Of a stretch of 64,000 bases of DNA, positions 29,329 through 30,869 are shown one piece after another; the stretch's first letter is position 1, and every line of letters starts with the position of its first letter. The DNA comes from Myxococcus stipitatus (GTDB lineage Bacteria; Myxococcota; Myxococcia; Myxococcales; Myxococcaceae), in the NCBI RefSeq assembly GCF_021412625.1, contig NZ_JAKCFI010000005.1, positions 1 to 64,000 of the forward strand, given 5' to 3'. The position numbers were made by a program, and so were the translations under genes. Under the pieces are notes generated by a model. That model did not search any database. It saw only the letters and a list, made by a program, of their open reading frames with translations, and was not told the DNA's origin.

Positions 29329-29340
29329 CCGACCGGTCGG
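29329..29340. promoter_or_regulatory. Palindrome CCGACCGGTCGG, possible TetR operator
   Basis: A perfect 12-base palindrome of the type bound by many TetR dimers sits about 28 bases upstream of a TTGACC (29369-29374) in front of the tetR-family gene, between that gene and the divergent thiolase gene. Confidence 0.45.
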
Positions 29341-29406
29341 GCACCTGAACGGCGCATCATGTTCATATTTGACCTCGAAGTACAAAACCGGCTATCAGCC
29401 CGGGGC

Positions 29407-29985
29407 ATGGCACGACCGAGGAAGTTCGAGGCGGACGACGCCGTGCGCCGGGCGATGGAGGTCTTCTGGGAGAGGGGCTACGCGGCGGCGACGCCCCAGG
29501 AGCTGGGCGAGCGGATGGGGCTGGGGCGCGGCAGCCTCTACAACGCGTTCGAGAGCAAGCAGCACCTCTTCGAGCGCGCGCTCCGGCACTACCACGCGCA
29601 CGAAGCCCCCAAGCTGCTCGCGCTCTTGCGCCCACCCGGCTCCATCAAGGAACGGCTGCGGGCGCTGTTCCTCGCGGTTATCCAGGCGGACGTCGGGGAC
29701 CCGGCGCGCCGGGGCTGCCTGGCCATCAACACCGCCATCGAACTGGCCGGGCGCGACGCCGCCGCGGCCCGACTCGCCTCCGAGATGTTCGCGCGCACCG
29801 AACAGCACTTCCTGGAGCTCGTCGAGGAGGGCCAGCGCACCGGCGAGGTCGACGCCTCGCGCGACGCGCGGGCCCTGGCGAGCCTGCTCCTCAACCACCT
29901 CACCGGCCTCCGCGTGCTCGGAAAGACGGCGGAGGACACCACCCGCCTCACCCGTATCGTCGATGAACTCCTGAGGATCCTCTGA
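29407..29985 (+). CDS. TetR/AcrR-family transcriptional regulator
   Basis: The 192-residue protein has the N-terminal TetR HTH (ATPQELGERMGLGRGSLYNAFESKQHLFERAL) and a helical ligand domain with the RGCLAINTAIELAG segment common in one subgroup of the family. The ATG at 29407 (MARPRKFEADDAV) is chosen over an in-frame ATG at 29359, since TetR proteins typically start just before the first helix and the extra stretch overlaps a possible promoter. The lactonase-like gene starts two bases after its stop codon, so the two form one transcription unit and the regulator probably controls it. Confidence 0.92.
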   Translation: MARPRKFEADDAVRRAMEVFWERGYAAATPQELGERMGLGRGSLYNAFESKQHLFERALRHYHAHEAPKLLALLRPPGSIKERLRALFLAVIQADVGDPARRGCLAINTAIELAGRDAAAARLASEMFARTEQHFLELVEEGQRTGEVDASRDARALASLLLNHLTGLRVLGKTAEDTTRLTRIVDELLRIL

Positions 29986-29987
29986 CC

Positions 29988-30869
29988 ATGGCCCCCTTCC
30001 GTCCCCTCCTCCCGTCGCTGCTCCTGCTCTCCCTCGGCGGCGCCTGCGCGCACCACGCCGAGCCCTCCGCCGACGCCGCCCAAGCCCCCCAGGAGCGCCC
30101 GGCGTCCATCCGCCTCTACACGCTCGACTGCGGCCGCATCGACGTCCACGACATGGGCTTCTTCGCGGACGGCAGCCACCCCAACGGCCAGCGCGGGACG
30201 ATGTCCGTCCCCTGCTTCGTCATCCAGCACCCCCAGGGCGTGCTCCTCTGGGACACGGGGCTGGATGACGCCATCTCGAAGTCCCCGGAGGGCGTGGTGG
30301 ACCCGGTGGGGCCGCGCTTCTTCGTCCACGCCACGCTCCAGGCGCAGCTGGCGCGGCTGGAGCTGTCGACCTCGAACATCCGCTACGTGGGCTTCTCCCA
30401 CCTGCACGCGGACCACGCCGGCAACGCCAACGCGTTCTTCGCGTCCACCTGGCTCGTCCAGCGCAAGGAGCTGGAGTGGGCCACCGCCACGCCCGCGCCG
30501 CTGGGCGTGGACCCCACCAGGTTCTCCGCGTGGCGCCAGGCGAAGGTGGAGCTGCTCGACGGCGACCGGGACGTCTTCGGCGACGGCACCGTGCGCATCC
30601 TCTCCACGCCCGGCCACACGCCCGGCCACCAGTCGCTCCAGGTGACGCTCGCGAAGACAGGGACGCTGGTCCTCTCCGGAGACCTCTGCCACCTGCGTGA
30701 GAACTGGGAGCACGACGGGGTGCCCGGCTTCAACACCAGCCGCCAGGAGACGCTGACCTCCATGGCGCGCGTCCGGTCGCTGGTGAAGGACACCCACGGG
30801 CGCTTCGTCATCCAGCACGTGCCGGAGGACTTCGCGTCGCTGCCGGAGTTCCCCGCGTACCTGGAGTAG
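29988..30869 (+). CDS. Metallo-beta-lactamase-fold lipoprotein, N-acyl-homoserine-lactonase-like
   Basis: The 293-residue protein carries a lipoprotein-type signal ending in GGAC (Cys20) and a metallo-beta-lactamase fold. Zinc motif H138-L-H140-A-D142-H143 is complete, followed by STPGHTPGHQS, an aspartate in LSGDLCH and a histidine in FVIQHVPEDF. The overall plan, with a strand LYTLDCGRIDV at the start and a NTSRQET segment late, is that of AHL lactonases such as AiiA/AttM, which open the lactone ring of quorum signals. Substrate is inferred only. Most characterised lactonases are cytoplasmic, so an envelope-anchored form is unusual. Confidence 0.85.
   Translation: MAPFRPLLPSLLLLSLGGACAHHAEPSADAAQAPQERPASIRLYTLDCGRIDVHDMGFFADGSHPNGQRGTMSVPCFVIQHPQGVLLWDTGLDDAISKSPEGVVDPVGPRFFVHATLQAQLARLELSTSNIRYVGFSHLHADHAGNANAFFASTWLVQRKELEWATATPAPLGVDPTRFSAWRQAKVELLDGDRDVFGDGTVRILSTPGHTPGHQSLQVTLAKTGTLVLSGDLCHLRENWEHDGVPGFNTSRQETLTSMARVRSLVKDTHGRFVIQHVPEDFASLPEFPAYLE

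Follow-up and report, generated by a model that had tools for sequence, protein, structure and literature searches.

By sequence comparison, a TetR-family regulator gene and the gene of a lactonase-like hydrolase constitute a real and conserved regulator-enzyme module in Myxococcus stipitatus and its relatives. The TetR/lactonase-like lipoprotein pair appears to be a compact, sound, and fairly ordinary two-gene unit of some predatory myxobacteria and, by analogy with the tested precedent QsdR/QsdA, a unit of a kind already known. We consider that it probably acts as a self-contained inducible module for lactone hydrolysis, in which a self-repressing TetR protein and a lactone-cleaving lipoprotein would be made when a lactone-like compound appears.

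The gene pair and its distribution

The window, a stretch of 64,000 nucleotides, carries the TetR gene at positions 29407-29985 and the hydrolase gene at 29988-30869, both on the forward strand, and reading of the open reading frames places 2 bases between them. The same gap between the TetR stop codon and the ATG of the enzyme frame was observed in all 13 ortholog pairs, including that of the window, confirming the close spacing described in an earlier note. At L010, L011, and L014, the enzyme frame also offers a TTG or GTG codon 6 bases upstream of this ATG. On the upstream side of the pair, genes whose translations were read as a thiolase and two CoA-transferase subunits run in the opposite direction, and on the downstream side lies a convergent gene read as that of ribosomal protein S1.

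The regulator consists of 192 amino acids, and its TetR_N (44.8 bits; cut-off, 24) and TetR_C_13 (48 bits; cut-off, 27) domains both scored above the Pfam gathering score. Its start at 29407 (MARPRKF) is common to the orthologs. The dN/dS values, 0.20-0.36 for the TetR protein and 0.31-0.52 for the enzyme with three relatives compared for each, indicate that both are under purifying selection. The nearest solved structure by sequence was that of CifR (6nsn; E value, 1.8e-19), which senses epoxides. A TetR paralog of 44% identity is encoded in the same genome (L125:3754-4338) beside a gene that, as read from sequence, is aldo/keto-reductase-like. Given the kinship with CifR and the neighbor of this paralog, a role as a sensor of electrophiles would suit the TetR protein equally well.

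The distribution of the pair was compared across 27 genomes of the genus (Myxococcus in the wide sense), that of the window included. Both genes were found between the thiolase and S1 genes in nine genomes and were absent from this site in 18, indicating that the pair is no general trait of predators. In Corallococcus, four of the five loci found (L009, L010, L011, and L014) hold the pair amid other neighbors, and the fifth (L012) holds the enzyme alone. The enzyme also occurs without this TetR in Archangium (L013) and at the same-family loci L067 and L068, and these four orthologs count against a self-contained module. In one Myxococcus genome from which the pair is absent (G008; L091), the upstream element described below is retained, followed by approximately the last three dozen lactonase codons and then the S1 gene; judged by its sequence, this remnant is the scar left by deletion of the pair. 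The coupling of a TetR gene to an exported lactonase-like enzyme, as proposed earlier, is borne out, the two genes being kept as a unit across orthologs.

Two candidate sites upstream of the regulator

A conserved TATTTGACCTCGAAGTACAAAA element at 29366-29387 of the forward strand is proposed, on the basis of column conservation and presence/absence comparison, as an operator overlapping the promoter. The sequence TTTGACCYNNRRGTACAAA within it (29368-29386) lies 20 bases upstream of the TetR start and was present in all nine genus genomes with the pair, compared with one of the 18 without it, the sole exception being the deletion scar of G008. In Corallococcus, the element likewise stands ahead of the three pairs with enough upstream sequence, and it is kept in 12/12 ortholog upstream regions, which span two genera and differing neighborhoods. 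Mean column conservation in these 12 regions was 94% within columns -3 to 20, compared with 50% before and 55% after. In the 10.1-Mb genome of the window strain, the only match at up to two mismatches was the pair's own site. A wider regulon of the TetR protein was considered, and the search of this genome for a second copy of the element at the same threshold returned none. Because the inverted repeat is imperfect, with six of nine symmetric pairs in the window, the element could be mostly promoter. It includes TTGACC at 29369-29374, which, by comparison with the consensus, we take to be a -35-like box. With the ATG only 20 bases after the element, the message of the pair may be nearly leaderless.

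By contrast, the palindrome CCGACCGGTCGG at 29329-29340, which had been put forward as the operator of this TetR, goes with the divergent thiolase gene and not with the pair. It is an exact palindrome, as described, occurs once in this genome, and lies 66 bases upstream of the TetR start. However, every one of the 27 genus genomes has it, with up to one mismatch, at a distance of 123-203 bases upstream of the thiolase gene. Because 18 of these genomes lack the pair, the palindrome is tied to the thiolase side, and for the three Corallococcus pairs tested, the best match within the preceding 260 bases had four mismatches. A perfect 12-bp palindrome arose in 196 of 2,000 shuffles of the 272-base intergenic stretch. 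That it serves as the TetR operator is therefore hardly tenable, even though it is perfect, upstream of the regulator, and present at up to one mismatch with all nine genus pairs, and TTTGACCYNNRRGTACAAA is the better operator candidate by this comparison. The palindrome is likely to be a regulatory site of the thiolase. A conspicuous palindrome beside a regulator need not be the operator of that regulator.

A predicted exported lactonase-like enzyme with His in place of the catalytic Tyr

The second gene of the pair (29988-30869) encodes a 293-residue hydrolase of metallo-β-lactamase (MBL) fold that appears to be exported, and its Lactamase_B domain scored above the Pfam cut-off. The first 60 bases (29988-30047, forward strand) encode a signal with the lipobox-like SLGGAC, ending at Cys20, which is predicted to be lipid modified. 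The lipobox pattern matched 13 of the 16 N-termini examined, with the window counted among them and L009 outside the test. The three misses were L013 and L068, both of which have a Cys after the hydrophobic stretch, and L067, whose start was misassigned in the analysis. The lipoprotein signal recorded in the earlier note is accordingly present as a sequence pattern, with lipidation predicted. The full HxHxDH site that it recorded is also there, as HLHADH at residues 138-143 (30399-30416, forward strand) with H138, H140, D142, and H143 invariant in 23 sequences, yet this motif is generic to the fold. The dinuclear HxHxDH ~ H ~ D ~ H site is complete (H138, H140, D142, H143, H210, D232, and H277).

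The predicted model of the enzyme (pLDDT, 89.7) had the overall fold of AiiA/AttM-type lactonases, with Z scores of 31-33 over 237-249 residues. Its nearest neighbors were AhlX (9khq_B; Z 33.2, rmsd 2.0, 248 residues aligned), GcL (6n9i; Z 32.5, rmsd 1.9, 243 aligned), AiiA (2a7m; Z 31.5, rmsd 2.1, 243 aligned), and 4-pyridoxolactonase (4keq; Z 31.1, rmsd 2.1, 245 aligned). The enzyme shares a predicted fold and the metal site with AiiA, GcL, AaL, AhlX, and 4-pyridoxolactonase, at sequence identities of ~22%-28%. The nearest NCBIfam model was AttM/BlcC (141 bits; cut-off, 390), at a score short of the equivalog level, and the AiiA model (108 bits; cut-off, 375) was likewise not reached; that these cut-offs lie far above the scores obtained counts against a lactone module.

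The enzyme differs from these lactonases at one catalytic position. In D232-L-C-H235 (30681-30692, forward strand), alignments place the metal ligand Asp and, three residues after it, a His at the site of AiiA Tyr194 and GcL Tyr223. Tyr194 in AiiA numbering contacts the lactone carbonyl. AiiA, AhlX, and pyridoxolactonase, the three read, have Tyr here, and AttM also has it; the three AttM/BlcC copies read have DAAY, not DLCH. His was found in the window enzyme and in 40 of 43 other distinct relatives, the exceptions being L083 (Tyr), L084 (Asp), and L045 (Pro). In a 48-row tree (42 His and 6 Tyr), which omits the distant L084, L051, L085, L052, L053, L002, and L045 and the frame-broken L117, His occupies one side of a branch. 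A 36-row tree, in which the seven distant rows were restored and other rows thinned out, contained 28 His, 6 Tyr, and 2 other rows (L045 Pro and L084 Asp). In this tree, a 99/99 branch divided the Tyr-type lactonases of proven activity from a group of 25 rows that includes the window enzyme (24 His and 1 Pro), and four distant His rows (L051, L052, L053, and L002) fell across that branch, on the Tyr-type side. A single derived His clade was discarded, since His in this second distant group means that the residue needs three changes on the 36-row tree; His may accordingly be an ancient state and not a derived one.

The His-type branch extends to further relatives. In a plasmid sample (10 of the 274 plasmid records with a match), His is present in five proteins that bear the annotation "N-acyl homoserine lactonase family protein" (Variovorax, Sphingomonas, Sinorhizobium, Methylocapsa, and Sodalis) and in an unannotated Cupriavidus protein; a sixth protein so named (Agrobacterium, L121) resembles AttM and carries Tyr. 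At L016-L019 (Rudaea and three MAGs), His-type relatives follow genes that read as MurD-like and aspartokinase-like. A protein of 661-685 amino acids, encoded in at least 8 of the 100 genomes searched, joins a serine hydrolase domain (PF00144) to a His-type lactonase domain that follows it (L069-L076, e.g., L071:5155-7167). These fusions carry SxxK, YS, and WGG motifs, which we take to be family VIII esterase-like, and two of the eight were checked against Pfam. All eight lie beside a divergent TetR-like gene whose product is 26%-33% identical to the window TetR (two Pfam-checked). An operator common to the pair and the fusion paralogs was also considered and dropped, because the intergenic regions of the latter hold another repeat (TAGCAGTCACTA-like in some, by eye). 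No paper on the pair, sought under its present description, was found in the open-licence literature, a body outside which most subscription journals lie; within the same literature, none was found on the fusion.

Proposed mode of action and candidate substrates

We propose that the TetR protein would repress its own gene and that of the enzyme together by occupying the TTTGACC...GTACAAA element that overlies its promoter. The repressor would come off when it meets a small lactone-like compound, probably the enzyme's substrate or its product. The enzyme would then be exported and lipid anchored in the envelope, where its two-metal site may open a lactone ring with His235 in place of the usual Tyr. 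QsdA of Rhodococcus erythropolis, a phosphotriesterase-like lactonase, is not known to be a lipoprotein. Its gene adjoins that of QsdR, a TetR protein whose repression is lifted by the homoserine lactone ring and which serves as a tested precedent (PMC6262395). Unlike the pair, the QsdR-QsdA operon also includes an acyl-CoA ligase, and transcription of qsdR and that of qsdA begin at different sites (PMC6262395). AttM/BlcC (blcABC) of Agrobacterium resembles the enzyme of the pair as an MBL-fold lactonase under repressor control (PMC5924552) and differs in beginning without a signal and in having dehydrogenase neighbors.

What the module acts on is less certain than its existence. There is a substantial, if less than even, chance that it detoxifies or uses some other lactone or an ester, such as a gamma- or delta-lactone, a lactone antibiotic, or a mycotoxin, and that any cleavage of AHLs is no more than a side activity. 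The AttM/BlcC operon offers a precedent, since it serves gamma-butyrolactone breakdown and its expression is unaffected by AHLs (PMC5924552). Furthermore, sister proteins carry the same enzyme domain fused to a PF00144 serine hydrolase, a hint that substrates of the branch may be esters or lactones, and TetR relatives have possible detoxification partners. However, the pair is not accompanied by any catabolic gene, and the neighboring thiolase is also present in the 18 genomes without it.

AHLs are possible substrates, because AidC, MomL, and LrsL also have His at this position and are active on AHLs (PMC9441902), although we hold it less likely than not that an AHL is the natural substrate. 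The earlier reading as a whole, in which AHLs from prey induce a lactonase for them on the cell surface as the quorum-quenching tool of a predator, is less likely than not, with evidence on both sides. In its favor, AHL lactonases are the neighbors by fold and by sequence, MomL and LrsL are described as potentially secreted (PMC9441902), and several plasmid relatives carry the annotation given above. M. xanthus responds to AHLs (PMC5348527). C6-AHL is reported to upregulate a TetR regulator in M. xanthus and Cystobacter ferrugineus (PMC9257966), and nothing links that TetR to the present one. A domain search found no LuxR autoinducer-binding domain in this genome, with the E. coli control matched, which supports that part of the earlier reading; a LuxI search returned no match here, but the control also had no match anywhere, so the result is uninformative. 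Against the earlier reading, Tyr is replaced by His relative to the nearest fold group, and in GcL the Tyr223Phe change lowered catalytic efficiency on C8 and C10 AHLs by more than two orders of magnitude (PMC11423328). LrsL (Z 22.7, rmsd 3.1, 228 aligned) and AidC (Z 21.6, rmsd 3.1, 230 aligned) have more distant folds, approximately ten Z units below the best match, and MomL was not in the fold listing. LrsL was among the sequence matches listed (31 in one search and the best 60 of 69 in another) and AidC was not. The absence of the pair from 18/27 genus genomes also weighs against this reading. Since GcL Tyr223Phe loses efficiency whereas AidC, MomL, and LrsL work with His, the His neither proves nor excludes AHL activity.

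That the enzyme is no lactonase and instead a β-lactamase, a phosphotriesterase, or another MBL-fold hydrolase is improbable. The generic HxHxDH motif, weak matches to B3 β-lactamases and methyl parathion hydrolase, and the ~11-fold gain in paraoxonase activity of GcL on loss of the Tyr hydroxyl (PMC11423328) are consistent with it. However, the B3 β-lactamase model scored 36 bits, well below AttM and AiiA, and the β-lactamases listed had Z scores of ~16-17 and methyl parathion hydrolase ~24-25, compared with 31-33 for lactonases.

We return to the pair as an inducible lactone-hydrolysis module, the reading we prefer. As a tentative extension, it may belong to a myxobacterial family of TetR-controlled, envelope-exposed lactone hydrolases, comprising the lipoprotein form and the fusion of a serine hydrolase with a His-type lactonase, that disarm lactone signals or antibiotics of prey or competitors and also sense them. 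If this extension holds, the His-type branch would represent a large class of lactonases that are exported and use another residue in catalysis. On the preferred reading, the pair would be a myxobacterial counterpart of QsdR/QsdA, with an enzyme acting outside the cytoplasm. The conserved element, the natural deletion scar, and the genomes with and without the pair would provide a clean test case for how a predator handles lactone signals.
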